The notes under the pieces: model-generated
Databases searched by the model: none
What the model was told of the DNA's origin: nothing
Seen by the model: only the letters and a program-made list of their open reading frames with translations
Program-made: the position numbers and the translations under genes
Source of the DNA: Chitinophagaceae bacterium
GTDB lineage: Bacteria > Bacteroidota > Bacteroidia > Chitinophagales > Chitinophagaceae
Assembly (NCBI GenBank): GCA_027486835.1
Contig: JAIXOJ010000015.1
Span: 1-36,991, forward strand
Reading direction: 5' to 3'
Length of the DNA stretch: 36,991 nt
Part shown: in pieces, positions 2,151 to 25,226 of the stretch
Numbering within the stretch: position 1 is the stretch's first letter
Layout: the number at the start of each line of letters is the position of its first letter

Positions 2151-2296
2151 GTAGGGTGTATTTGAACCGAGTTTAGTATGCGATTTTGATTGATTCATTG
2201 CGTAACGAGTTTTCATTGCTCCAAATACCTATTTCCCCAAAAAAATCCCTAACATCGCAATTCAAACAACTAGATATACCAATTAATATGTTACTT

Positions 2297-5011
2297 ATGA
2301 AAAAGAAAATACCCCAAATTGTAGTGGGCTTTATAGCCTTATGTTTGATTGTGAACAACCCAGCAAAAGCCCAATGGACGCCTTTAGGGAATTATCCCAT
2401 TTATAATGGTAACTTTTCGAACACAATCGAATGCTTGACAAAAGATAACAGCGGAAACCTATATGCAGCAGGTTCACTCACCAACAGCAGCGGCAAATAT
2501 TACGTAGCGAAATGGAACGGAAGTGCGTGGAGCGAGTTAGGCGGCACTAACACATCCACATTTAATAATATCATAAAGAGCTTGTCAACCGATGCCAACG
2601 GAAATCTATACGCGGCAGGGTTATTTACCAACGGCAGCGGCAAATATTATGTAGCGAAATGGAACGGGAACGCATGGAGTGAGGTAGGCGGCAGCAATAC
2701 TTCCACTTTTAACGATGGAATAATCAGCTTGGCCACCGATATCAGCGGAAACCTATATGCAGCAGGGTGGTTCAGAAACAGCAACGGCAGTAATTATGTA
2801 GCAAAATGGGACGGAAACACCTGGTCTCATGTTGGCGGTACTAACAATTCCACGTCTAACGGTAATATTTTGTGCTTGTCCACCGATGCCGACGGAAATC
2901 TATTCGCAGCAGGGGCTTTCATAAACGGAAGCGGCAAATATTTTGTAGCAAAATGGAACGGGATCTTGTGGTCTGAGGTAGGTGGCACAAACACTTCCAC
3001 TTTTAACTGGAATATAACCAGCCTGTACACCGATGCCAGTGGAAACCTATTTGCAGCAGGTATTTTCACCAACGGAAACTTCAAGAATTACGTAGCGAAA
3101 TGGAATGGTAGTGTGTGGTCTGAGCTAGGCGGCACAAATACTTCCACCTTTAACTGGCCTGTCTTCAGCTTAACCACCGATTCCAGTGGAAATCTCTATG
3201 CAGCGGGGTATTTCACCAACGGAAGCGGTAAGCAGTATATTGCGAAATGGAATGGTAGTGTGTGGTCTGAGTTAGGCGGCACCAATACTTCCTCATTTAA
3301 CAATAGTATATACAGCCTGTACACCGATGCCAACGGAAACCTGTATGCAGCTGGGCAGTTCACCAATGGCAGCAGCAGTAAATTTGTAGCGAAATGGAAT
3401 GGAAGCACTTGGAGCGAGGTAGGGGGGATCAACACTTCCACTTTTAACAATTATATATATAGCTTGACCAGCGATGCCAGCGGAAACTTCTACGCTATAG
3501 GGAATTTCACCAACGGTAGCGGGAAGTCTTATGTAGCGAAATGGGACGGAAACACCTGGTCAGAGTTAGGCGGCACCAACACTTCCACATTTAACAATGA
3601 AATATTGAGCTTATGTAGCGATGCTAGTGGTAATTTATACGCAGCAGGAAGTTTCACCAACGGCAACGGAAATAGCTTTGTAGCGAAATGGGACGGGAAC
3701 ACGTGGTCAGAAATAGGTGGCACCAATACTTCCTCATTTAACAGTCGGATACAGTGCTTGTCCACCGATGCCAACGGAAACCTCTATGCAGCAGTGGCTT
3801 ATATTAACAGCATAGGGAAATGGTTTGTCGCGAAATGGAACGGGAATATGTGGTCTGAGGTGGGCAACACCAATACCTCCTCTTTTAATGACTTAATATA
3901 CAGTATATCAACCGACCTCACCGGAAATTTATACGCGGCAGGGTTCTTCACCAACGGCACTGGCAAGTGTTATTTAGCGAAATGGAACGGGAGTGTATGG
4001 TCCGAGGTAGGGGGTGCCAACACCTCTACTTTTACCAATGGTATAATTAGCTTGACCACCGATGCCAGCGGAAACTTCTACGCAGCAGGGGTTTTCCGAA
4101 ACGGCAGCGGCAAGTATTATGTAGCGAAATGGGATGGGAGTGGGTGGTCAGAGGTAGGCGGCATCAATACTTCTACTTTTAATGGTGTCATTGGTAGCTT
4201 GTCCACAGACGCAAGTGGCAATCTATTTGCAGCAGGAACTTTCACCAACGGCATCGGGAAGCAATATGTAGCGAAATGGAACGGAAGCACTTGGTCTGAA
4301 GTAGGTGGCGCCAACACTGCAACTTTCAACAATAATATATACAGCTTGTCCACCGATTCCAACGGAACCCTATACGCTGCAGGTGATTTCACCCTCCCAA
4401 ACGTTGCTTATACTACCCGATTTGTGGCCAAATTCAGCAATACCACCACACCTGTAACCCTTGCTTCCTTCACTGCTAAAGCCATGCCCCCATCCCCTGA
4501 AAGGGTGCAAGTAGTGGTTAATTGGCAAACAGCCACCGAAGTAAACTCCAGCCATTTTATTGTAGAACAAAGCAGCGATGGCAAAACATTCTCTGCAAAA
4601 GGCACTGTAAAAGCAGTAGGTTTTGGAGCAAATAAGTATGCGTTTGAAGTTCCTTTCGGAGAGGGGTTAGGGGTGAGGTTATTCCGTTTAAAAATGGTGG
4701 ATAACAACGGCACTTTCACCTATAGTAAAGTGGTTTCTGTACAACTAACCACTAACCACTTACCACTAATCACTATCACTCCTAATCCTGCAAAAGATTT
4801 CTTAACAGTAAAACTAAATGCCCCAAAAGCAGCAAAAGCGGTTGTACAAATAGTAAACACCGCCGGGCAAGTAGTCAAACAAATATCCATAGCCTTGCAA
4901 GTGGGAGAAAACGCCACCAAAGTGCCTATCAACACCTTAGCCAATGGCAGTTACACCCTGCATGTGAAAACAGAAAGCAATAACTGGCAAGGGCGGTTTG
5001 TGAAAGAGTAA
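2297..5011 (+). CDS. Secreted 14-unit repeat protein with T9SS C-terminal sorting domain
   Basis: The 904-residue product starts with a signal peptide (MKKKIPQIVVGF, cleavage near AKA-Q). Thirteen complete 49-residue units and a partial fourteenth follow, each reading roughly GNLYAAGxFTNGSGK-YVAKWNG-WSEVGG-NTSTFN-SLxTD. A linker and a type-A sorting domain of about 80 residues follow (TPNPAKDFLTVKL onward), which directs secretion through the type IX system to the surface. The pattern of four short strands per unit suggests beta-propeller blades, and 14 units would fit two seven-bladed propellers (inference). The frame is open from 2186, but I chose 2297: it begins a typical signal peptide, and the paralogue at 11417 has the same start with an in-frame stop just upstream in homologous leader sequence. 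Ligand and function are unknown. Confidence 0.85.
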   Translation: MKKKIPQIVVGFIALCLIVNNPAKAQWTPLGNYPIYNGNFSNTIECLTKDNSGNLYAAGSLTNSSGKYYVAKWNGSAWSELGGTNTSTFNNIIKSLSTDANGNLYAAGLFTNGSGKYYVAKWNGNAWSEVGGSNTSTFNDGIISLATDISGNLYAAGWFRNSNGSNYVAKWDGNTWSHVGGTNNSTSNGNILCLSTDADGNLFAAGAFINGSGKYFVAKWNGILWSEVGGTNTSTFNWNITSLYTDASGNLFAAGIFTNGNFKNYVAKWNGSVWSELGGTNTSTFNWPVFSLTTDSSGNLYAAGYFTNGSGKQYIAKWNGSVWSELGGTNTSSFNNSIYSLYTDANGNLYAAGQFTNGSSSKFVAKWNGSTWSEVGGINTSTFNNYIYSLTSDASGNFYAIGNFTNGSGKSYVAKWDGNTWSELGGTNTSTFNNEILSLCSDASGNLYAAGSFTNGNGNSFVAKWDGNTWSEIGGTNTSSFNSRIQCLSTDANGNLYAAVAYINSIGKWFVAKWNGNMWSEVGNTNTSSFNDLIYSISTDLTGNLYAAGFFTNGTGKCYLAKWNGSVWSEVGGANTSTFTNGIISLTTDASGNFYAAGVFRNGSGKYYVAKWDGSGWSEVGGINTSTFNGVIGSLSTDASGNLFAAGTFTNGIGKQYVAKWNGSTWSEVGGANTATFNNNIYSLSTDSNGTLYAAGDFTLPNVAYTTRFVAKFSNTTTPVTLASFTAKAMPPSPERVQVVVNWQTATEVNSSHFIVEQSSDGKTFSAKGTVKAVGFGANKYAFEVPFGEGLGVRLFRLKMVDNNGTFTYSKVVSVQLTTNHLPLITITPNPAKDFLTVKLNAPKAAKAVVQIVNTAGQVVKQISIALQVGENATKVPINTLANGSYTLHVKTESNNWQGRFVKE
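2453..4363 (+). repeat. 147-bp coding tandem repeat, 13 full units
   Basis: Counting residues from the first GNLYAAG (Gly codon at 2453) to the fourteenth (Gly codon at 4364) gives exactly 13 x 49 codons with no insertion or deletion. Units share long identical runs at DNA level, such as those encoding AKWNG and WSEVGG, which suggests recent expansion or ongoing homogenisation between units. Confidence 0.9.
4486..4507 (+). repeat. Single core copy of the 43-bp repeat family inside a coding sequence
   Basis: These 22 bases match the array unit at 773 at 21 positions, including the CCCATCCCCTGAA core. They are read in frame as Met-Pro-Pro-Ser-Pro-Glu-Arg-Val in the linker between the repeat domain and the sorting domain. 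The insertion kept the frame open. Confidence 0.75.
4651..4680 (+). repeat. Second dispersed repeat inside the same coding sequence
   Basis: The GC-rich stretch with GGAGAGGGGTTAGGGGTGAG is a familiar dispersed Bacteroidota repeat; its reverse strand gives the recurring peptide LTPNPSPKG. Here it is translated as PFGEGLGVRL in the linker-like region before the sorting domain. The family identification is from memory and was not searched. Confidence 0.55.
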
Positions 5012-11416: not shown

Positions 11417-13663
11417 ATGAAAAAGAAAATTACACATGTTTTTGTAGGGTTAGTGGCACTTTGTATTGTTATAGCGACCGCTGCAAAAGCTCAGTGGAGT
11501 GTTGTTGGTGATTATCCTAAAGCAGGAGGTGTTTTTACGGACAGAATCGAACATATAACAACAGACAAAAAAGGTAATTTATATGTGGCTGGAAAGTTTA
11601 AGAACGGAAACGGAAAGTGTTATGTAGCGAAATGGGACGACAACAAATGGAGCGAAGTTGGTGGCACAAATAGTTCTAGTTTCTTCAGATACATTAAAAG
11701 TCTCACTACAGACTCGGTTGGCAACCTGTATGTAGCAGGATGGCTCAGAGCTAGCTGGGCTAGCAGTTATAAAGAATATGTTGCAAAATGGAACGGAAGC
11801 GAATGGAGCGAAGTAGGTGGTGTTAACACTTCTAATTTTGATTTTGTAATAGAGCATCTTTTTACCGATGCGAAAGGCAATCTCTATGCGGCTGGCCCTT
11901 TCCGTAAACGCAATGGAAAAGAGTATATAGCAAAATGGAATGGAAGCCAATGGAGCGAAATTTATTGTGAGGATTTATTAATATTCTGTCATCAAATTTT
12001 AAGTATTGTATCAGATTCTGACGGTAGCTTGTATGGGTCGTTTATGTTCGGAAAAGACTGGGAAAAGTCCTATGTTGCTAAGTGGAATGGAGATAAATGG
12101 ACAAAGGTTGGAAATGAAAAAGATTCAATTTTCAATGGTAATGTTTTAGACCTCATAACAGATACAAAAGGTAACCTATATGCTACAGGAGATTTCAGAA
12201 ATAGAAAAGGAAATAATTATGTGGCTAAATGGAATGGTAGAAAGTGGAGCGAAGTTGGAGGCCAGGACGATTTTATAACCAATAATCGGATTTGTAGAAT
12301 CGCCACGGATGCTAGAGGTAACTTTTATGCGGCAGTTTGGGATTACAGCACTCATAAGTCTTACATAGGAAAATGGGATGGTAATACTTGGAGCCTAATA
12401 GGTGGGCCTAACGATTCTTCGTTTAATGACTATATCGATTGCCTCATTACCGATGAGAGCGGCAACCTTTATGCTGCTGGAAATTTCAAGAACAACAAAG
12501 GGAATTACTATGTAGCTAAATGGGACGGGAAAGTATGGAGCGAAGTTGGTCTTTCAAACACAAATAAACTAAATGTTTGTATCAATACCTTAACCACAGA
12601 TGGTAACGGCAATTTGTTTGTAGGTGGGAATTTCCGGAATACCCACGATATAGCGCTAGCTAAATGGGATGGAAAAATGTGGAATGAGGTAGGAGGTACA
12701 AACGCTATTAAAGTAACTGGTCAAATTTATACCCTTCACAAGGATAAAAGCGACAACCTGTATGCAGGCGGATATTTTGTGAAAGACGTTCAAAAATCTG
12801 ATATAACAAAACGGAAAGACACCTTGTGGAGTGAAGTTAGTGGTGGTAATATAGCGAAGTTTTATAACGGAGTTAGTTGCTTTACTTCTGACAAAGCTGG
12901 GAACGTATATGCAGCAGGCTATTTAAAAGTTGGTAAAGGAGAATACTATGTTGCTAAATGGGATGGTAGCACATGGAGTGAACTGGGCGGAAGAAAAGTT
13001 TCTACATTCAATGAAAGTATAGATTGTATTGCCTGCGATGCAAGCGGCAACCTATATGTTGCTGGAGCTTTGAAGGATGTTAAAGAGAATGATTACGATA
13101 GAGATAAGTATTATGTATCAAAATGGAATGGCAATAATTGGAGCGCAGTTGGCGGTATAAACGGTTATATCTTCAATCATAAAATAAAAAGCCTAGTCAC
13201 CGATTCAGTTGGCAATTTATATGTGGCAGGTCTTTTCAGAAACGAAAACGATAGATATTATGTAGCGAAATGGGACGGCAGCAATTGGAGCGAGTTACAT
13301 GGGGCTAACACTTCTAGATTATCTGGGTTGATTAGTTGCCTTACCATTGATTTATCAGGAAATCTTTATGCTATAGGAGAATTCAAAAACGACAGTGGAA
13401 AGCATTATGTAGCCAAATGGGACGGCAAGACTTGGAGCGAGGTAGGCGGAGCGAACACTTCCACATTCAATGATGAAATTACCAGCATTACCACAGATGC
13501 GGCGGGCAATTTGTATGCGGCGGGTCGTTTCAGTCTGCCAACTGTAGGATACTATACTAACTATGTAGCCAAATACACAATCCCCAAAACTCAATCGGTG
13601 CCCAAGAAAAAGAAGTTAACTAAAGAATACCCACTAAGAAAAAGGCAACTTAAAATAAAATGA
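11417..13663 (+). CDS. Secreted 14-unit repeat protein, paralogue lacking a sorting domain
   Basis: The 748-residue paralogue of the 2297 gene has a closely matching signal peptide (MKKKITHVFVG, cleavage near AKA-Q) and again 13 units plus a partial fourteenth with the same GNLYxAG / YVAKWNG / WSEVGG frame. Its units are far more diverged from each other, and several have changed length (units 2 and 11 longer, 6 and 8 shorter). The protein ends in a very basic tail (KKKKLTKEYPLRKRQLKIK) where its relative has the type IX sorting domain. It may therefore be released to the periplasm rather than displayed, or be a decaying copy. The leader is shared with the other gene (CCCTAAC-TCGCAATTCAA about 60 bases upstream in both), and its in-frame stop supports both start choices. 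Confidence 0.8.
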   Translation: MKKKITHVFVGLVALCIVIATAAKAQWSVVGDYPKAGGVFTDRIEHITTDKKGNLYVAGKFKNGNGKCYVAKWDDNKWSEVGGTNSSSFFRYIKSLTTDSVGNLYVAGWLRASWASSYKEYVAKWNGSEWSEVGGVNTSNFDFVIEHLFTDAKGNLYAAGPFRKRNGKEYIAKWNGSQWSEIYCEDLLIFCHQILSIVSDSDGSLYGSFMFGKDWEKSYVAKWNGDKWTKVGNEKDSIFNGNVLDLITDTKGNLYATGDFRNRKGNNYVAKWNGRKWSEVGGQDDFITNNRICRIATDARGNFYAAVWDYSTHKSYIGKWDGNTWSLIGGPNDSSFNDYIDCLITDESGNLYAAGNFKNNKGNYYVAKWDGKVWSEVGLSNTNKLNVCINTLTTDGNGNLFVGGNFRNTHDIALAKWDGKMWNEVGGTNAIKVTGQIYTLHKDKSDNLYAGGYFVKDVQKSDITKRKDTLWSEVSGGNIAKFYNGVSCFTSDKAGNVYAAGYLKVGKGEYYVAKWDGSTWSELGGRKVSTFNESIDCIACDASGNLYVAGALKDVKENDYDRDKYYVSKWNGNNWSAVGGINGYIFNHKIKSLVTDSVGNLYVAGLFRNENDRYYVAKWDGSNWSELHGANTSRLSGLISCLTIDLSGNLYAIGEFKNDSGKHYVAKWDGKTWSEVGGANTSTFNDEITSITTDAAGNLYAAGRFSLPTVGYYTNYVAKYTIPKTQSVPKKKKLTKEYPLRKRQLKIK

Positions 13664-15601: not shown

Positions 15602-16639
15602 ATGAACAATAAAAAAGCAATCATAAAAGAATTTGGGAAGCCTTCGGTTATTCAAATAGTAGCGGAAGCAGTTCCGGAGCCAAAGGAGCATGAGGCGCGA
15701 ATCAGGATAGAAGCCTCCACCGTTTCTGCAACTGATATTTTTATTCGTAAAGGAATATACCCCTTGCTCAAACAGCAACCACCATTTACGCTGGGCTACG
15801 ATTTTGTGGGCATCGTTGATAAAGTGGGTCAAGGGGTAACCAATGTATCCGTTGGAGATAGGGTTTCGAGTATTGTGATGGTTGGCGGTAATGCCAGTTT
15901 TATTTGCACGGACGCAAACGAACTGACTAAAATACCAACAGATGTTGCAGCTGCCGACGCCGCTTGCTTTGCCTTATCTGGCATTACCGCCTATCAAATG
16001 TTTGCACATTTTGCGGGCGCGAAAGCGGGGCAACGCATTTTGATACATGGAGGCAGCGGTGCGGTGGGAGATACGCTGTTGCAGTTGGGAAGATTGCACC
16101 ATTGCGAAATGGTGGCAACCGCCTCTGCCAGCAAACATGCCCTTATAAAAAGTTATGGTGCCAAGGCAATAGACTACCACGCTGTTGACTATTTTGATAG
16201 CCTTGCAAAAAGTGCCGAAGACGGATTTGATGCCATCTTTGATTTTACCAATCAAGCTAGCTTTCACAACGACATAAAGCTCCTGAAAAAGGGTGGAACA
16301 TTGGTAACCTACGCAGTCTATACGTCTTCACTTGCAATAGAAAAGAAAACATTTTCCAACTTTATGGCTTTCGGGATGGATTTTGGGAAAATGATGATCA
16401 AATTGCTGTTCTGGAATAAGTTCAGTGGAAAAAAAGCGGTGTTCTATGGGAGTAGCGATAGTAAAAAAGCAGACCCAGCAAGGCATCAAGCAGATATGGA
16501 TCAACTATTTGAATGGCTAAAAAAAGGTGCCATCAAACCCACCATCTTTAAAATAATGGGATTAGATGAGGTAAAAGAGGCGCATCAAATGCTACAGGAC
16601 GGGAAAGTGCAAGGCCAAATTATTATTGCAAACAATTAA
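15602..16639 (+). CDS. Zinc-free medium-chain reductase, quinone-oxidoreductase-like
   Basis: The 345-residue MDR-superfamily protein has a GroES-like N-terminal domain (about 5-125) with YDFVGIVDKVGQGVTNVSVGD, and a Rossmann domain with ILIHGGSGAVGDTLLQLGRL (about 147-166), the AxxGxVG-type NADP-binding turn of quinone oxidoreductases. The Cys-rich structural-zinc loop of classical alcohol dehydrogenases is absent. The C-terminus KVQGQIIIANN is the usual final strand. It probably reduces an enone, quinone or aldehyde with NADPH; the substrate cannot be read from sequence. It is coupled to the DoxX-like gene upstream and its stop is 8 bases before the sigma-factor ATG. Confidence 0.85.
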   Translation: MNNKKAIIKEFGKPSVIQIVAEAVPEPKEHEARIRIEASTVSATDIFIRKGIYPLLKQQPPFTLGYDFVGIVDKVGQGVTNVSVGDRVSSIVMVGGNASFICTDANELTKIPTDVAAADAACFALSGITAYQMFAHFAGAKAGQRILIHGGSGAVGDTLLQLGRLHHCEMVATASASKHALIKSYGAKAIDYHAVDYFDSLAKSAEDGFDAIFDFTNQASFHNDIKLLKKGGTLVTYAVYTSSLAIEKKTFSNFMAFGMDFGKMMIKLLFWNKFSGKKAVFYGSSDSKKADPARHQADMDQLFEWLKKGAIKPTIFKIMGLDEVKEAHQMLQDGKVQGQIIIANN

Positions 16640-16647
16640 TATTGCGA

Positions 16648-17484
16648 ATGGAAATTACTACGGATCAAACCTTAAAATTAGCCATCAATGGCGATATCAA
16701 TGCCTTTCAAACGCTGTTTGCCACTTTCCAGCAGCCGTTAAAATCTTACCTCTACAGGCTAACAACCGACCGCAGCGATGCCGAGGATTTAACGCACGAT
16801 ACTTTTGTAAAAGCTTTTGACAAGGTTTCAACCTATAAAGGCACGGCTTCTTTAAAAACATGGGTGTTTACCATTGCTACCCACCTGGCTTACGACCATT
16901 TGAAAAAACAAAAGCGTTGGTTGCCCGACGCCCAAGACCAATCCAAAGCATTGGCCGGTAGCGATATACGCATCCGCCAAGCCTTTAGTGCCCTTAACAA
17001 CGCTGGCGGCGAAAACACCTATGAAATGAAAGAGCATATTGATTTTTGCTTTACCTGTATTTCCAAAACCCTACCTATAGAAAACCAAGTAGCGTTGATA
17101 CTAAAAGATATTTACGATTTTTCGGTCAATGAAATTTCCCTGATACTAGAAAAAACCGAAGGAGTGGTAAAGCATTTACTGATTGACGCCAGAAAAACAA
17201 TGACGACCATTTTTGACCACCGATGCGCCTTGATCAATAAAAACGGCGTATGCAATCAATGTTCAGAGTTGAACGGGGCATTTAACCCAAAACAAAACAA
17301 ACAAGAGGCTTTGATGAAACTAGAATTGGTAAAAGCCTCCAAAAAGTTTGACAGAGAACAATTGTATGAATTGCGGGCCACGTTGGTAAAAGCCATCGAC
17401 CCCACCCGTGGAAAAGGCGCAGACTTGCAAGATCTGATTATGAAATGCACCAGAGTGGCCATTGGGGAATTGGAACAGATGTAA
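16648..17484 (+). CDS. ECF-like sigma-70 factor with Cys-containing C-terminal extension
   Basis: The 278-residue protein has sigma region 2 (about 20-90; DAEDLTHDTFVKAFDKV and LKTWVFTIATHLAYDHLKK) and region 4 (about 138-190; LPIENQVALILKDIYDFSVNEI). It then extends about 90 residues beyond a normal ECF factor. The extension opens with a Cys cluster (C193, C202, C205, spacing C-x8-C-x2-C, with H191 adjacent) that could bind zinc or sense redox state, then a helical tail. No anti-sigma gene is adjacent, so the extension may itself regulate the factor, as in the ECF41 and ECF42 groups. ATG 16648 is chosen over the TTG at 16642. It probably controls its own operon (inference). Confidence 0.85.
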   Translation: MEITTDQTLKLAINGDINAFQTLFATFQQPLKSYLYRLTTDRSDAEDLTHDTFVKAFDKVSTYKGTASLKTWVFTIATHLAYDHLKKQKRWLPDAQDQSKALAGSDIRIRQAFSALNNAGGENTYEMKEHIDFCFTCISKTLPIENQVALILKDIYDFSVNEISLILEKTEGVVKHLLIDARKTMTTIFDHRCALINKNGVCNQCSELNGAFNPKQNKQEALMKLELVKASKKFDREQLYELRATLVKAIDPTRGKGADLQDLIMKCTRVAIGELEQM

Positions 17485-17552
17485 TTATAGAGAATCTCGA
17501 TTAAAAAAATTCAGCTACTATATTTGCTAGGAAGACGTAATCACCCTTATTT

Positions 17553-18371
17553 ATGCTCTGTAACTTAGACAATGAAATAATTTTTAAAAAAGCTTTTACC
17601 AATAAAACGGTGTTCAAAGCTTTTGTGCGAGATGTTTTAGGCATTGAGGTGGAAGTAGATACTATAGAAACCGAAAAGCGGTTTGCACCCAGGGTGGGTT
17701 ATGTAGATTTTCAACTGGACATTTTTGCCGAAACCACCGACAAAAGGGTTTGCATCGAAATACAACGGGTGGAATATGACCACCATTTCGACCGATTCCT
17801 GCATTATTTCCTGATGTTAATTGCGGAGCAACAAAAGAGCAGCAAAGAATATACACTGGAAAGGACAGTGTATGTGATTGTTGTACTAACAGCGCCCTAC
17901 AAAATCAGCGAGAAAAACGGGAAACCTATTTTGGATGAAGTATTGCTGTTGAAACTAAACCCACAAACATTGCTTGGGGAGGTAAGAGAATTATACGGAC
18001 ATCAGTTTGTTTGCTTAAACCCCAACCATCCCAATACGGAAACACCCAAACCAATAAGAGATTGGCTCGATCTTATTTATCAATCCATACACAGCCCAGA
18101 AAGACCCGTTTTGAATTTGCAAAATGAAGGCATTAAAAAGGCAGTGGAAATTATCAGTTTTGAAAACCTCACGCCAGAAGAAAGAGCACAATCGAAAAAT
18201 CAAGAAGCGGCAAAAATTACTTTGGCCAAAAATGATCATTATTCGAAACGAGAAGAAAAATTTGAAGTTGCAAAAATTGCAATCCAAAAAGGTTTTGACA
18301 ATGTCATTATTTCTGAACTAACCAGATTAACAATTGAGGAAATTGGACAACTCCGTAAAGATTTTGAATAA
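17553..18371 (+). CDS. Rpn family / PD-(D/E)XK nuclease, copy 1
   Basis: The 272-residue protein is of the recombination-promoting nuclease (PD-(D/E)XK transposase-like) family. The putative active site is D56 in VDFQLDIFAE and E69-x-Q71 in CIEIQRV, where Gln replaces the usual Lys, as is common in this family. The nuclease module (1 to about 213) is followed by a 59-residue charged tail ending in FDNVIISELTRLTIEEIGQL, the usual C-terminal helical motif. The module is nearly identical to copy 2 immediately downstream; only residues 9 and one in the YTxERT segment differ up to 213. The tail is unrelated to that of copy 2 except for the final pattern. Rpn proteins are linked to horizontally spread DNA cleavage and phage defence. 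Shared DNA begins about seven bases before the ATG. Confidence 0.85.
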   Translation: MLCNLDNEIIFKKAFTNKTVFKAFVRDVLGIEVEVDTIETEKRFAPRVGYVDFQLDIFAETTDKRVCIEIQRVEYDHHFDRFLHYFLMLIAEQQKSSKEYTLERTVYVIVVLTAPYKISEKNGKPILDEVLLLKLNPQTLLGEVRELYGHQFVCLNPNHPNTETPKPIRDWLDLIYQSIHSPERPVLNLQNEGIKKAVEIISFENLTPEERAQSKNQEAAKITLAKNDHYSKREEKFEVAKIAIQKGFDNVIISELTRLTIEEIGQLRKDFE

Positions 18372-18461
18372 CCATGTTCTTGATTCCACCTTTCTGAGTA
18401 GCGTTAATACATTTAAGCATTTACAAATCTTCACTATTCTTTATTAATTTACCACTTATTT

Positions 18462-19283
18462 ATGCTCTGTAACTTAGACAATGAAGTAATTTTTAAAAAA
18501 GCATTTACCAATAAAACGGTGTTCAAAGCTTTTGTGCGTGATGTTTTAGGCATTGAGGTGGAAGTAGATACCATCGAAACCGAAAAGCGGTTTGCACCCA
18601 GAGTGGGTTATGTGGATTTTCAATTGGATATTTTTGCCGAAACCACCGACAAAAGGGTTTGCATCGAAATACAGCGTGTGGAGTATGACCACCATTTCGA
18701 CCGATTCCTGCACTATTTCCTGATGTTAATTGCGGAGCAACAAAAGAGTAGTAAAGAATATACGCCAGAAAGAACGGTGTATGTGATTGTTGTACTAACA
18801 GCCCCCTACAAAATCAGCGAGAAAAATGGGAAACCCATTTTGGATGAAGTATTGCTGTTGAAACTAAACCCGCAAACATTGCTTGGGGAGGTAAGGGAAT
18901 TATACGGACATCAGTTTGTATGCTTAAACCCCAACCATCCCAATACGGAAACCCCCAAACCAATAAGAGATTGGCTCGATCTTATTTATCAATCTATACA
19001 CAGCCCAGAAAGACCCGTTTTGAATTTGCAAAATGAAGGCATCAAGAAGGCAGTAGAAATTATCAGTTTTGAAAACCTCACCCCAGAGGAGCGTGCGCAA
19101 ACGAAGTTTAATGAGATGCGAAGAATTGTCCTTGCCAAAGAAAGGCTAGCCGGTAGTGACGAAAGGAATATTCAGAATGCATTAAGTGGTATTTCTAAAG
19201 GGTATAGCAACCAAATTATTGCCGACATAACAGGATTATCATTTGAACAAATTGATCAATTACGTAAGGAACAGAAGGAATAG
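18462..19283 (+). CDS. Rpn family / PD-(D/E)XK nuclease, copy 2
   Basis: The 273-residue tandem paralogue of the preceding gene, 90 bases downstream, keeps the same D56 / E69-x-Q71 site. From about residue 214 the sequence switches abruptly to a different 60-residue tail (TKFNEMRRIVLAKERLAG onward, ending YSNQIIADITGLSFEQIDQL). Within the shared module I count roughly 35 silent base changes against two replacements, so the proteins have been held constant by selection or by conversion between selected copies. An in-frame ATG at 19116 (codon 219), just past the switch, could start a 55-residue tail-only product like the short Rpn forms described in enterobacteria; this is speculative. Confidence 0.85.
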   Translation: MLCNLDNEVIFKKAFTNKTVFKAFVRDVLGIEVEVDTIETEKRFAPRVGYVDFQLDIFAETTDKRVCIEIQRVEYDHHFDRFLHYFLMLIAEQQKSSKEYTPERTVYVIVVLTAPYKISEKNGKPILDEVLLLKLNPQTLLGEVRELYGHQFVCLNPNHPNTETPKPIRDWLDLIYQSIHSPERPVLNLQNEGIKKAVEIISFENLTPEERAQTKFNEMRRIVLAKERLAGSDERNIQNALSGISKGYSNQIIADITGLSFEQIDQLRKEQKE

Positions 19284-19306
19284 CTCAATTTTCCATTAAA
19301 TCAAGC

Positions 19307-19338
19307 AAAAAAAATCCCCGCCGTTTAAGGTGGGGATA
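19307..19338 (-). terminator. Terminator for the minus-strand aminotransferase transcript
   Basis: Read on the minus strand, ATCCCCACC and GGCGGGGAT form a stem followed by a run of T (the A-run at 19307-19314). On the plus strand there is no T-run after the stem. Confidence 0.65.
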
Positions 19339-19449
19339 TAAGCGATTGAAATAAACTCAGAAAGCAAATCGGCATGAAGGAACTATAAAAAAGGTGCGCC
19401 AATTTTATAGCGGATGCCTTATGATTCTTTAGCTGTTATAATGTAAACT

Positions 19450-20643
19450 TTATAAAGCTGCATACACTTTTAAAGCTTCTTGCAAACAATCCATAGCAGC
19501 AGAAATATCTTGAACGTTCAATACATAAGCAAAACGAACTTGATTTTTTCCCAGGCCAGAAGTGGCATAAAATCCTGAGCCCGGTGCCAACATTACTGTA
19601 GCATTTTTATAACTGAAAGAAGAAAGCAGCCACTGACAGAACTTGTCCGCATCATCAATTGGCAATTGGGCAATAGCATAAAAAGCACCACTTGGTTTGG
19701 GGCAATAAACGCCGTCCATTTCATTGAGGCGGCGAACGATTAAATCTCTTCTCGCTTTGTACTCCGCTTTTGTTTGATCAAAATAATCAGCCGGTAAATC
19801 CAACGCCGCTTCCCCTGCCATTTGAGCAAACCCTGGTGGGCAAAGTCTAGCTTGTGCAAATTTCATTACTGCTTCAATCAGAGCCTTGTTGCGTGTTACC
19901 AAAGCTCCTATCCTACCCCCACATGCACTGTATCTTTTACTAATAGTGTCCACCATAATCACATGCGCATCCACTCCCAATAAATTAAGAGAAGACATCG
20001 GCATTTCACCTTCATAGTTGAATTCCCGATAGGCTTCATCGCAAAACAAATAGAGTTGGTGTTTTTTTACTAATTCCCCTAATTGCTCCATTTCCTCTTT
20101 GCTATACACATAACCAGTTGGGTTATTGGGATTGCAAATGACAATCGCTTTGGTTCGAGGGGTGAGCTTTTTTTCTAACTCACTTACTGGGGGTAGTGCA
20201 AATCCATTTTCGATAGTTGAGGTTACGGTAACTACGTTTACTCCAGCTTCCGCTGCAAAGCCATGATAGTTGGCATAAAATGGTTCTGGAATTAATACTT
20301 CATCACCATAATCTAAGCAAGCCATGAAGCCAAAAAGTATTGCCTCGCTGCCGCCAGTGGTAATGACTATTTGTTGGTAATCTACAGCAATACCCACACT
20401 TTGATAGTACTTAACCAGCTTCTTTCGATAGGATTCGTTTCCAGCACTATGCCCATACTCTAAAATTTTAAAATCGCTTTTACGTACCGCATCAAGCATG
20501 ATTTGTGGAGTTTCAATATCGGGTTGGCCAATGTTGAGGTGATACACTTTCAAACCTCTTTGCACCGCAGCCTCTGCAAATGGTACTAATTTTCTTATGG
20601 GCGATGAGGGCATTTCTTGCCCTCGTTTACTAATTTCTAACAT
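19450..20643 (-). CDS. PLP-dependent class I/II aminotransferase
   Basis: The 397-residue fold-type I aminotransferase resembles aspartate/aromatic aminotransferases. It has LNIGQPDI (36-43), TTGGSEA (95-101), NPNNPTG (171-177), DEAYREF (202-208) and the PLP lysine K236 in TISKRYSACGGRIG. In most relatives that motif is SLSKxFxxxGxRxG, so Arg-Tyr-Ser after the Lys is a modest variant. The C-terminal substrate-binding Arg is present in NQVRFAYV. The substrate amino acid cannot be deduced. ATG 20643 is chosen; the TTG codon just before it is also in frame. It is a single gene with its own terminator. Confidence 0.9.
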   Translation of the reverse strand: MLEISKRGQEMPSSPIRKLVPFAEAAVQRGLKVYHLNIGQPDIETPQIMLDAVRKSDFKILEYGHSAGNESYRKKLVKYYQSVGIAVDYQQIVITTGGSEAILFGFMACLDYGDEVLIPEPFYANYHGFAAEAGVNVVTVTSTIENGFALPPVSELEKKLTPRTKAIVICNPNNPTGYVYSKEEMEQLGELVKKHQLYLFCDEAYREFNYEGEMPMSSLNLLGVDAHVIMVDTISKRYSACGGRIGALVTRNKALIEAVMKFAQARLCPPGFAQMAGEAALDLPADYFDQTKAEYKARRDLIVRRLNEMDGVYCPKPSGAFYAIAQLPIDDADKFCQWLLSSFSYKNATVMLAPGSGFYATSGLGKNQVRFAYVLNVQDISAAMDCLQEALKVYAAL

Positions 20644-20904
20644 CAAATATGGGTGTAGTTTTTATTAACCCTTTCCTGGATAATCAGGAAAAGAGGTTTT
20701 TCCTTGTGTTGTGGTACAAGGTTGAAGTTCAGTGGTAGAGGGCTACTCTAACAATCGGTTGTTTGGATGAAAAATGAAATTACCAATGCGCTATTACTGC
20801 AAAGCCTTACAAATCTGTGTAAATACGCAGGTTAGTAATTACGGATTGCCATTAATGTATTTAATTTCAATGACGCTTCAAGCTGCTATTTGCTGAGACA
20901 AAAT

Positions 20905-21333
20905 CTAGCGTAATCTATCTGCACTTTTTACCAGTTGCTCATCTTTCCAGATTGCTCGCAAAGCCAATAATAGAAAAACAGGAATGACAAATACGAATGC
21001 TGCAGTTAGATCTAATTTACCCTCGCCTGGAATAAAGTGTTTTGATTCGGCAAAGTATAGCACAATATTTATAATGGAAACAGCAGCAATTGCACCAGTA
21101 ACCATCATCTGCCTTTTACGGTCTTTGTATAAAAAAATAACCACTATTGCCGCTACTGCCTCTGCAATAGTTAATAGTAATAAAGTGAAGTTACTAGCAG
21201 CATTGAGCGCTACAAAAGTTTTGGTAACAGCCGCTCCTATATTTTGATTTCCACTAAAAAAAGAAAAGCGAATCGTTAGAAAAGCAAAAACGGCGGCAAT
21301 CAGTAACCAAATAGATTGAATTCTTTGAATCAT
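20905..21333 (-). CDS. DUF4293 family membrane protein
   Basis: The 142-residue protein starts MIQRIQSIWLLIAAVFAF, the characteristic N-terminus of the Bacteroidota-specific DUF4293 family. It has four hydrophobic segments: about 7-22, 43-65, 72-90 and 105-125. The frame extends 11 codons upstream, but the family start and the position of the first helix support ATG 21333. It is an inner-membrane protein of unknown role. Confidence 0.85.
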   Translation of the reverse strand: MIQRIQSIWLLIAAVFAFLTIRFSFFSGNQNIGAAVTKTFVALNAASNFTLLLLTIAEAVAAIVVIFLYKDRKRQMMVTGAIAAVSIINIVLYFAESKHFIPGEGKLDLTAAFVFVIPVFLLLALRAIWKDEQLVKSADRLR

Positions 21334-23117: not shown

Positions 23118-24104
23118 ATGAAAAAAACTATAGCAATTGTGGGCTTTTCTGCCACTATGATGATTTTTATGTTGTTGGGCTGTAAAAAAGATGATGGTGG
23201 CAGTAACTCCACCCCCGTTTCAGATTCAACCATTCAGGTTTCAGTATTTCAAAACGCAACGGATCAAATCCTTATTCAAAACGATGAAGAATTTATTGAA
23301 CAAGATATTAGTACGGCCTTGGCCAAATCGCTCTACAATTTCGATGGAACTAAAGACTCCGCTTTCGATGGAACGACTCTTGCAGTTGCCTACATCAACA
23401 AATTTGACTACTTCTCTTCTGGAGTTAAAAAATTCAATTTAGCCTATCGGTCTGGAATTGAAATCAACGGCATTTCTAAAAAAGGAATCATTACCGTTGA
23501 ACTAATTAAAGGCACTAAATGGAATGAAAAAGATGCGGTAATTAAAGAAACCTTAGACAGTGTAAGTATCGCTTACAATAACAAAACAAGAACGTACTTA
23601 GGCACTCGCTTTATTACGAACATTAATGGTACATCTAAGTTGGACATTTCCGCCTCAAAACCTTTTGCTTATGCCGTGAGGGTTTATGGTTCAGTAGTTC
23701 ATGAAGACAAAAAAGTAACCAATTATTGGATTGCTCGAAGAAATTCCCTTACAAATAATAGCCCCATTGCTGCTATCCCTACAACTTTTGCAACCGACGG
23801 CGACACTACTGTCAGTTCATCAGTTTGCAGTATGGGCGGTACTTCCCGTAACGGCAATACTTTCTTAGTAAAAGCACCACAAACTTATGTAGCTGCTCAA
23901 GCTTGCAACTACGCAAAACCTTATTTAGGCACTAGAACCTACACCAATACTGCTGATAATAGCAGCTTTACTATATTATATGGTGTAAATGCTGCGGGTA
24001 CACAGTTGGGTAATCCCGCTACAGCTTGTGATTCATTGTATGGCTACAAACTTTCTTGGACAAAAGGAAATGGTCAACTTACATCTGCATTAGTGGCTTA
24101 TTAA
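23118..24104 (+). CDS. Lipoprotein, unknown function, paralogue of the next gene
   Basis: The 328-residue lipoprotein has a classical lipobox (FMLLGCKKDDGG, Cys22) followed by a flexible linker. The mature domain aligns throughout with the product of the following gene. Shared blocks are GKKGIITVELIKGTKW-like, VIKETLDSVSIAYNNKTRTY, VxGSVVHEDKKVTNYWIAR, DGDTTVSSSVCSMGGTSRNG, and a final KLSWTKGN...ALVAY. Paired Cys (SSVCSMGG, QACNY, TACDS) may form disulfides. The pattern suggests an all-beta extracytoplasmic domain. The lysine after the lipid-Cys and the acidic residues beyond suit surface or outer-membrane lipoproteins of this phylum. I do not recognise a named domain. Confidence 0.75.
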   Translation: MKKTIAIVGFSATMMIFMLLGCKKDDGGSNSTPVSDSTIQVSVFQNATDQILIQNDEEFIEQDISTALAKSLYNFDGTKDSAFDGTTLAVAYINKFDYFSSGVKKFNLAYRSGIEINGISKKGIITVELIKGTKWNEKDAVIKETLDSVSIAYNNKTRTYLGTRFITNINGTSKLDISASKPFAYAVRVYGSVVHEDKKVTNYWIARRNSLTNNSPIAAIPTTFATDGDTTVSSSVCSMGGTSRNGNTFLVKAPQTYVAAQACNYAKPYLGTRTYTNTADNSSFTILYGVNAAGTQLGNPATACDSLYGYKLSWTKGNGQLTSALVAY

Positions 24105-24176: not shown

Positions 24177-24290
24177 GTTGGAATAGTTTTCTTGAACACT
24201 ATTTTTTAACAACCATTTTCTTTGATTTTGTGAAACGCTGATTAAACCAGCTTGACAGATTTAGTCTTTACAACTGAACTAAAAATAATA

Positions 24291-25226
24291 ATGATGAAAA
24301 AGACAGTATTAATGCTTTGCTCCCTTTTGGTTATGGTAGTGTTTAGTTTGTCTAGTTGCAAAAAGAAAGACAATACCGACAATACAACTACAGATGAAAC
24401 AGCACTACAATCCACCGTTACCACCAATTCTGCCGATCAATCGAGCGTTCAAAATGATGATGATGTATTTTCTGGCGACGTAGCTAGAGCCACCGATTTT
24501 CAAAATGCTTTTACGCCAATTGTTGGGGTTGATAGCATTGTAAACGACGTGAGTACGGTGGATAGGTCGCTTCTTTCCGCATCTGCCAGACGTTTTTTTA
24601 TTCGTTACAACAACAAACCCTTCAGAGGTATTACCCGCAGTGGAAAAATAACGGTTGAACTGATCAATGGAACGCGTTGGGGTGATATCGGTGCGGTAAT
24701 TAAACAAACTTTCGACACCGTAAAAGTGACTTACAGCAACGGTAAAACCAGAACTTACAATGGAATACGTTTGGTAACCAATGTAACGGGCGGATATTGG
24801 TACAGCGGAAATCCAGATTCTGTAGCACACCGTGTTAGATTTAATGGCTCGGTTACGTACGATAATGGTAGCACCAAAAATTTCTGGATTGCCCGCTTAA
24901 ATAGCTATGTAAAATCAGCCAAAAAATTTTATAGCGATGGAGACACCACCATTTCTGGTAATAAATATACCCAAGGTGGTACTTCACGTTTTGGAAATGC
25001 TTTTACTGTGCAGGCTGCTCAAGTGTACATTGCTGATTCTACCTGTGGTTTCGATAAACCATACTTTGGTAAACGCATTTACACTTCTGATAACCGCGAC
25101 GTGACAATCACTTTCGGGGTGGATGCTAGTGGTAATCAAGTGCCGTTGGGCAACTGTGCTTACGGATATAAAATTGAATGGGTTCGGTTCAATAAACAAA
25201 AAGCTACCGCCATTATAGCTTACTAA
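24291..25226 (+). CDS. Lipoprotein, unknown function, second tandem paralogue
   Basis: The 311-residue lipoprotein has the lipobox FSLSSCKKKD (Cys23) and an Asn/Thr/Asp-rich linker. Its mature domain is homologous to that of the upstream gene, with clear blocks RSGKITVELINGTRWGDIG, VTYSNGKTRTYNGIRLVTNV, NFWIARLN, FYSDGDTTISG and YGYKIEWVRFN. The pair is a tandem duplication old enough that N-terminal linkers and Cys positions have diverged. The frame opens at 24252, but the signal peptide begins at the tandem ATGs 24291 and 24294. Function is unknown; surface exposure is likely but not proven. Confidence 0.75.
   Translation: MMKKTVLMLCSLLVMVVFSLSSCKKKDNTDNTTTDETALQSTVTTNSADQSSVQNDDDVFSGDVARATDFQNAFTPIVGVDSIVNDVSTVDRSLLSASARRFFIRYNNKPFRGITRSGKITVELINGTRWGDIGAVIKQTFDTVKVTYSNGKTRTYNGIRLVTNVTGGYWYSGNPDSVAHRVRFNGSVTYDNGSTKNFWIARLNSYVKSAKKFYSDGDTTISGNKYTQGGTSRFGNAFTVQAAQVYIADSTCGFDKPYFGKRIYTSDNRDVTITFGVDASGNQVPLGNCAYGYKIEWVRFNKQKATAIIAY

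Follow-up and report, generated by a model that had tools for sequence, protein, structure and literature searches.

Two adjacent genes of a Chitinophagaceae bacterium encode proteins that are almost identical for 213 residues and then differ over the remainder, and the question raised by this locus is whether the two portions of each gene have descended together. The window, that is, the whole stretch of 36,991 nucleotides that was analysed, belongs to contig 126 of a draft genome that comprises 6.4 Mb in 219 contigs, and the twin genes lie in it as forward-strand open reading frames in tandem, head-to-tail, separated by 90 bases. The answer that we favour, with a probability of roughly 0.6 for the reading as a whole, is that these are self-inhibiting nucleases of the Rpn type, that recombination has given their nuclease modules, which are under purifying selection, a younger ancestor than their tails, and that the two would form an insulated pair. 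The features on which the argument draws are these:

17553..18371, + strand: copy 1, rpn-type gene (272 aa; PF12784 47.9 bits; AlphaFold pLDDT 87.1)
18462..19283, + strand: copy 2, rpn-type gene (273 aa; PF12784 47.7 bits; AlphaFold pLDDT 86.5)
17553..18170, + strand: homogeneous nuclease module of copy 1, codons 1-206 (28 silent changes in 201 residue-conserved codons)
18462..19079, + strand: homogeneous nuclease module of copy 2, codons 1-206 (same silent-site comparison)
18171..18191, + strand: codons 207-213 of copy 1, residues kept, DNA already diverged (silent change in 5 of 7 codons)
19080..19100, + strand: codons 207-213 of copy 2, residues kept, DNA already diverged (silent change in 5 of 7 codons)
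18192..18368, + strand: tail of copy 1, 59 residues, the remainder of a long helix and two short helices
19101..19280, + strand: tail of copy 2, 60 residues, predicted fold as in copy 1
18213..18350, + strand: residues 221-266 of copy 1, structural match to RpnA-S (PDB 7TH0)
19122..19259, + strand: residues 221-266 of copy 2, structural match to RpnA-S (PDB 7TH0)
19116..19118, + strand: in-frame ATG of copy 2, codon 219, candidate internal start (use as a start inferred)
18222..18224, + strand: in-frame TTG of copy 1, codon 224, weak candidate start (absent as a conserved codon in copy 2)
18144-18146, + strand: in-frame GTG of copy 1, codon 198, weak candidate start (absent as a conserved codon in copy 2)
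17546..17552 (copy 1) and 18455-18461 (copy 2), + strand: seven-base identity 5' of both ATGs
18372..18461: intergenic spacer, no more similar to the DNA upstream of copy 1 or downstream of copy 2 than shuffles are
17519..17526, + strand: TAnnTTTG, weak candidate -7 box upstream of copy 1

Judged by sequence and modelled structure, both twins are Rpn-type PD-(D/E)XK (PDDEXK_2) endonucleases with an RpnS-like C-terminal domain, their activity being predicted. Both lie above the PF12784 (PDDEXK_2) gathering cut-off of 27.4 bits, yet their scores of about 48 bits are low beside the values of up to 239 reached by other members in the same genome, and the twins are thus a divergent branch of PF12784; since the NCBI Rpn model TIGR01784 gives them 29.5 and 28.7 bits, below its curated cut-off of 52.1, we file them as Rpn-type PDDEXK_2 rather than under TIGR01784. 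In the structure alignments (65 rows), D6 and Q71 are invariant and D56, E69 and R81 at least 90% conserved; by our own pairing D6, Q71, D56, E69 and R81 fit RpnA D11, Q84, D63, E82 and R94, residues whose mutation abolished or altered activity according to Kingston et al. (PMC5350276). Foldseek returned no match to copy 1 at E ≤0.001 (the top rows, Can2 and SfsA, stand at E ~0.02–0.03), a single-sequence PDB search gave no result, and PADLOC had no match to the twin pair.

The nuclease module is held constant by strong purifying selection. Between the copies 35 of codons 1-213 differ, 33 silently and two with replacement (I9V and L102P), and the underlying 37 base differences include 35 silent ones, which bears out the initial annotation's count of two replacements and about 35 silent changes. 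Four estimation methods place dN at ~0.003–0.007 and dS at ~0.21–0.31 over this stretch, for a dN/dS of ~0.015–0.03; the ratio being so far from neutral, the near-neutral value that the annotation had set against its claim of a conserved nuclease is not what is found.

On the tails that same annotation erred: it gave their lengths correctly but took them to be unrelated apart from a weak closing pattern, naming a full-length profile alignment as the outcome that would speak against it. Profiles built from disjoint sets of tails align with 99.6% probability over 55 columns (these are small profiles, of 4 and 5 rows picked by tail similarity), and BLASTP aligns tail 1 with tail 2 without gaps at 22 of 57 identical residues (39%; E 1e-10, a single comparison), which together rule out non-homology: the tails are colinear homologues. 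A search of the twins' own genome with a tail 2 query of 62 aa, two of its residues coming from the nuclease end, likewise recovers tail 1 at 41% (E 2.2e-6). AlphaFold predicts the same helices in both copies (208-245, 250-257 and 261-271/272), and the best structural match of each tail is E. coli RpnA-S, over all 46 RpnA-S residues and in the same register in both. Within this shared fold the sequences have moved far apart. Replacements number 2 in 213 before the switch and 36 in 59 after it (permutation p as low as 2000 shuffles allow), the tail of copy 2 reads TKFNEMRR where the family motif is AKNKEAAK, and across 50 sequences tail entropy is 1.75 bits as against 0.49 for residues 1-206.

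The evidence for two histories within each gene comes from silent sites. Among residue-conserved codons of the twins, silent change affects 28 of 201 through codon 206 and 15 of 29 thereafter; the best break falls at 206/207 (permutation p 5e-4; support interval 192-208), just before the first tail helix. Residues 207-213 are conserved as protein though most of their codons differ, and the idea of a duplicated nuclease module with a switch at its end needs amending: the module boundary does lie at the nuclease/tail junction, while the DNA switches at 206/207 and not at codon 214. The silent difference between the tails (10/22) is about the level seen when the nuclease of copy 1 is compared with the genome's other close copies (98/189, 92/181 and 92/173). 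At the other end, DNA identity begins, as had been estimated, some seven bases before the ATG, exactly seven in both copies, and beyond these the flanks are no more similar than shuffles (the score is reached in 243/500 upstream with the seven bases, 106/500 without them, and 301/500 downstream). One off-diagonal comparison, the upstream flank of copy 1 against the downstream flank of copy 2, has a score reached in 14/500 shuffles, into which we read nothing. Seven shared bases with dissimilar flanks beyond them confine the homogeneous tract closely to the nuclease coding region, and together with the silent jump at 206/207 they suggest that the nuclease modules of the twins probably share a younger ancestor than their tails do.

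Trees give this reading less help. They were built from 48 of 78 aligned sequences (nuclease more than 70% identical, tail of at least 48 residues), the 78 being those kept of 115 hits (score >190, at least 240 aa). The nuclease tree joins copies 1 and 2 with an SH-aLRT of 100, and the free tail trees group copy 2 with a gene of another locus, L045 (support 90 for DNA, 92 for protein); the AU test nevertheless leaves sister tails unrejected (p 0.40 for protein, 0.775 for DNA), and the DNA tail tree that holds the copies together scores 16.4 log units above the result of the free search. The trees therefore do not prove that tails were swapped in the window, a tail of about 60 residues being too short to settle the branching order, and with sister tails unrejected the case for a separate history there has to be made from the break at silent sites and the dissimilar flanks.

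A comparable break recurs elsewhere. A second twin in the same genome, on contig C169, has silent change in 24/200 codons before residue 214 and 16/38 after (p 7e-4); this pair (L254, G000:C169:51000-53800) belongs to another rpn subfamily, with its break near the tail start. Across seven adjacent pairs, a non-random sample of those met along the way, replacement differences are concentrated in the last 8-59 residues in six (permutation p at the floor): the window, C169, G312 C174, G397 C49, G301 C24 and G301 C45; G301 C10 has none of them. Left out of the seven were the G301 C8 array, L094, the C39 pair of the twins' own genome (its second gene truncated where the contig ends) and other tandem loci, among them L058, L065 and L079. 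The silent excess in the tail reaches significance in the window, with p 0.003, and in C169, with p 0.00045, and is non-significant for C24 (0.38), G312 (0.12), G397 (0.068) and a Parabeggiatoa pair, L094 (0.15); in G301 C10 the silent difference runs the opposite way (p 0.047). Two of five regions compared for silent sites, G412 and G302, held no comparable pair.

Dispersed paralogues, compared in 20 regions that come from 6 genomes among the 35 with matches, extend the observation beyond tandems. Paralogues of the genome G486 have no nuclease replacements in 217 residues, with silent change at 17/214 codons in the nuclease against 16/47 in the tail (p 1.4e-5); these dispersed genes (L256, L257 and L258) carry one nuclease type and two tail types, one of which resembles tails of genes in the twins' genome. 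In all eight dispersed pairs with a nuclease silent difference below 25% the fraction is higher in the tail, with Fisher p <0.05 in four and 0.077–0.23 in the rest, pairs within a genome being non-independent; pairs with older nucleases have no significant tail excess. Chance matches within diverged tails can inflate the silent counts of the tails. The reverse, a lower silent difference in the tail, is seen for two adjacent unlike genes at L262, because these two share a tail.

The most serious competitor among histories is plain duplication, in which the whole gene was duplicated once without recombination, the nuclease remained under purifying selection and the tail changed quickly, selection on it being relaxed or diversifying. 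The high family entropy of the tails, their colinear homology, the unrejected sister tails, which DNA even favours, and the several other twins that combine tail replacements with no significant silent jump are all as it would predict. Against it count the jump of silent sites, too, at the boundary in the window, in C169 and in G486, and a spacer and upstream DNA that bear no trace of common origin though silent change has reached just 33 of the 208 nuclease codons with conserved residues, and we consider it unlikely.

That modules are exchanged between genes is seen in relatives of the twins. The Cytophagales genome G301 (JAAFIH) has a five-copy and a two-copy tandem of the same branch as the twins; as laid out at L155 1128-5330 (-) and 16216-17916 (+), these arrays have identical or nearly identical nucleases, a sharply bounded variable tail core and two helix-1 linkers. 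The candidate pairs listed are 25 of 957, with nuclease dS from 0 to <0.75, saturated values omitted and some rows repeating one gene where loci overlap. The nucleases of L059|1988 and L059|1166 show 99.7% DNA identity, but their tail cores differ. L059|1988 and L060|1121 combine tails of 99.4% DNA identity with a nuclease dS of 0.17, and L059|1166 and L059|344 combine identical tails with a nuclease dS of 0.15; within the array, different tails sit on nucleases with a dS of 0.016. One tail core, NAIIAHLSNEIITQIT, is found with both helix-1 linkers, and no donor for the G301 cores was found among the loci compared. Two adjacent G301 genes (L157 601-1437 and 1463-2395 (-); also L055) are 95.6% identical over their last 113 bases, their nucleases having no significant blastn match. 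In G666 the similarity of two adjacent frames of L262 (from ~1586 and ~2818 (+)) is likewise confined to the last 123 bases, at 86.2% identity and E 1.4e-38; a third gene in that stretch aligns with the one that has its own nuclease type through the nuclease (71%) but not through the tail. The body of one G486 gene shares 96% of its DNA sequence with both of its paralogues, whereas its tail agrees at 39/45 residues with an incomplete gene of the twins' genome, against 32/45 and 29/45 with the paralogues. Tails shared by nucleases without DNA similarity are rare at the thresholds used: one pair among 124 distinct tail-bearing ORFs, plus one G666 pair from later loci. The earlier suggestion of tail shuffling is supported by the relatives in G301 and G666; for the window, sister tails remain compatible with the trees. 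Small tail-bearing frames were also met. A tail match in C8, considered as a stand-alone antitoxin, was set aside, its frame probably being cut by the contig end since the locus has only 1740 bases, and L156 1068-1352 (-) holds a 94-residue open frame with nuclease end and tail only, either a remnant or a separate small tail gene.

What such tails would do is best approached through E. coli. Full-length Rpn proteins are toxic, RpnA cuts DNA, and a short C-terminal form binds and silences the full-length protein; RpnA-S dimerises, RpnA-S and RpnB-S each silence their own partner only, and one plasmid Rpn protects against some phages (PMC10327210). Given that fold and catalytic residues match, the simplest reading is that each twin would be a nuclease that inhibits itself, with the tail setting its partner. 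The main functional rival holds that the tail is a DNA-reading helix-turn-helix, different tails directing the same nuclease to different targets. The predicted fold is indeed HTH-like, with TrpR, resolvase and DeoR rows among its structural matches, and Kingston et al. (PMC5350276) offer a role for the variable tail in DNA preference, as a suggestion only. In the G301 array, though, helix 3, at the position of a recognition helix, hardly varies, the variation falling in helix 2 and at the end of helix 1, which argues weakly against it, and RpnA-S is a dimer and an inhibitor (PMC10327210); we think a DNA-reading role improbable.

Localised hypermutation of the tail, raising silent and replacement change together with no exchange between genes, would suit the sharp bounds on both sides of the changed G301 core and the failure to find a donor for it among the loci compared. 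Identical tail DNA on nucleases with a dS of 0.15 and tails shared by unlike nucleases call for copying between genes, which makes this account very improbable. Misjoining of two repeats in assembly can be all but dismissed, even for a draft genome with many metagenome-assembled relatives, given that the 35 differing nuclease codons are spread along the module, that the twins lie inside a 37 kb contig with other genes on either side, and that the pattern recurs in other genomes.

The simplest route to the twins would be recombination, a gene conversion whose tract began at about the ATG, spanned the nuclease coding region and ended where the long tail helix begins, so that older, different tails were left in place; replacement of the tail in one copy would have a similar outcome. 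The different tails would most likely confer on each copy a dimerisation and an antitoxin specificity of its own, and the twins would probably be two self-inhibiting toxins of the RpnL/RpnS kind, kept apart by their tails. As a pair they would amount to two nucleases, each insulated and self-neutralising, in place of a single redundant one, perhaps in phage defence. A broader proposal, which we advance tentatively and at somewhat less than even odds, is that Rpn tails are exchangeable specificity cassettes: tandem and dispersed constant nucleases would swap tails, or parts of them (the helix-1 linker independently of the helix-2 core), inside one genome and perhaps across genomes, yielding combinatorial self-inhibiting nucleases with private specificities, and the nucleases' own cutting may promote the exchange.

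The twins' genome has 30 PF12784 matches, 29 of them above the cut-off. A third tandem rpn pair of this genome (L161 4015-4899 and 5059-5793) is incomplete, its second gene running off the contig, with a further rpn gene nearby on the opposite strand. At a further locus, L158 1460-2140 (-), a gene for a repetitive coiled-coil-like protein with units like ANIKSELLTEIAKTNKEI lies near another rpn copy. Close relatives of the twins are patchy, in 2/294 genomes of the family at E 1e-20, one being their own, and in 4/13 of the genus at E 1e-3, one again their own and the other three weak. PF12784 matches occur in 23/198 genomes of the order at E 1e-10, matches in 35/345 of the phylum at E 1e-30, and none in 14 control genomes; 35 of 79 related loci are titled Cytophagales. 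Plasmid and phage collections gave no tblastn result, and viral contigs one partial match.

Around the pair, Pfam identifies a sigma factor, dehydrogenases, SHMT, an aminotransferase and SecA. A sigma-70-like gene (16642-17484) lies directly 5' of the twins, and between the two the TAnnTTTG at 17519..17526 resembles the Bacteroidota -7 box; none was found in the 90-base spacer. Elsewhere in the window are long repeat (propeller-like) proteins, apparently paralogous (2186-5011, which has a Por secretion sorting domain, and 11417-13663), and tandem lipoprotein-like genes, also apparent paralogues, with no Pfam match (23118-24104 and 24252-25226). An Rfam scan of 16000-21000 and a tRNA scan gave no result. 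PADLOC, run on ten neighbouring ORFs, had no match for nine and weak SspA/DndA matches (E ~1e-4) for the tenth, the aminotransferase; the defence-gene neighbourhood that is a tendency, not a rule, for RpnL/RpnS is not seen here.

The Rpn-type PDDEXK_2 family and its hypervariable tail domain are already known, and the twins are a divergent member of it. They share a catalytic pattern and a variable C-terminal tail with the YhgA-like RpnA-D of E. coli K-12 (PMC5350276). The closest parallel is the RpnL/RpnS gene-within-gene toxin-antitoxin of E. coli (Zhong et al., 2023; PMC10327210), with its conserved PD-(D/E)XK nuclease, a C-terminal domain of three helices that is highly variable, lengths that vary by four residues across the family, and tandem duplicates. 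The twins have the catalytic residues and the RpnS fold, and in their family the long helix varies by four residues (columns 229-232 are filled in 25/50 sequences, and G301 and G486 vary likewise), the two twins themselves having no such difference. Unlike RpnL/RpnS, the family has no conserved internal start. ATG219 of copy 2 is near the place expected for one, preceding the counterpart of RpnA residue 244 by two residues; the candidates in copy 1 are limited to GTG198 and TTG224, and across 78 ORFs no column is conserved (the best is TTG, in 30), with no such codon in 11. Together with the TIGR01784 scores below the cut-off, this speaks against simple RpnS membership. Also unlike RpnL/RpnS, where the highly variable C-terminal domain is explained mainly by a changing number of four-residue repeats (PMC10327210), the window tails differ in sequence. 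The main text of that paper reports neither separate nuclease and tail histories nor tails moving between nucleases, and our literature search, beyond whose reach most subscription journals lay, found no paper on exchange or separate ancestry of Rpn nuclease and tail.

Silent-site breaks at the domain boundary, together with tails common to different nucleases, point to a second route of variation, the exchange of a specificity domain or part of one, and bring two questions within reach of a test. One is whether the matching of antitoxin to nuclease depends on nothing but the tail, the other whether bacteria maintain arrays in which a single toxin type is combined with many private antitoxins. 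In type I restriction systems, specificity domains are shuffled so that a constant enzymatic part is combined with an exchangeable specificity part. The proteins differ, and the likeness of the twins to those systems is one of principle only.
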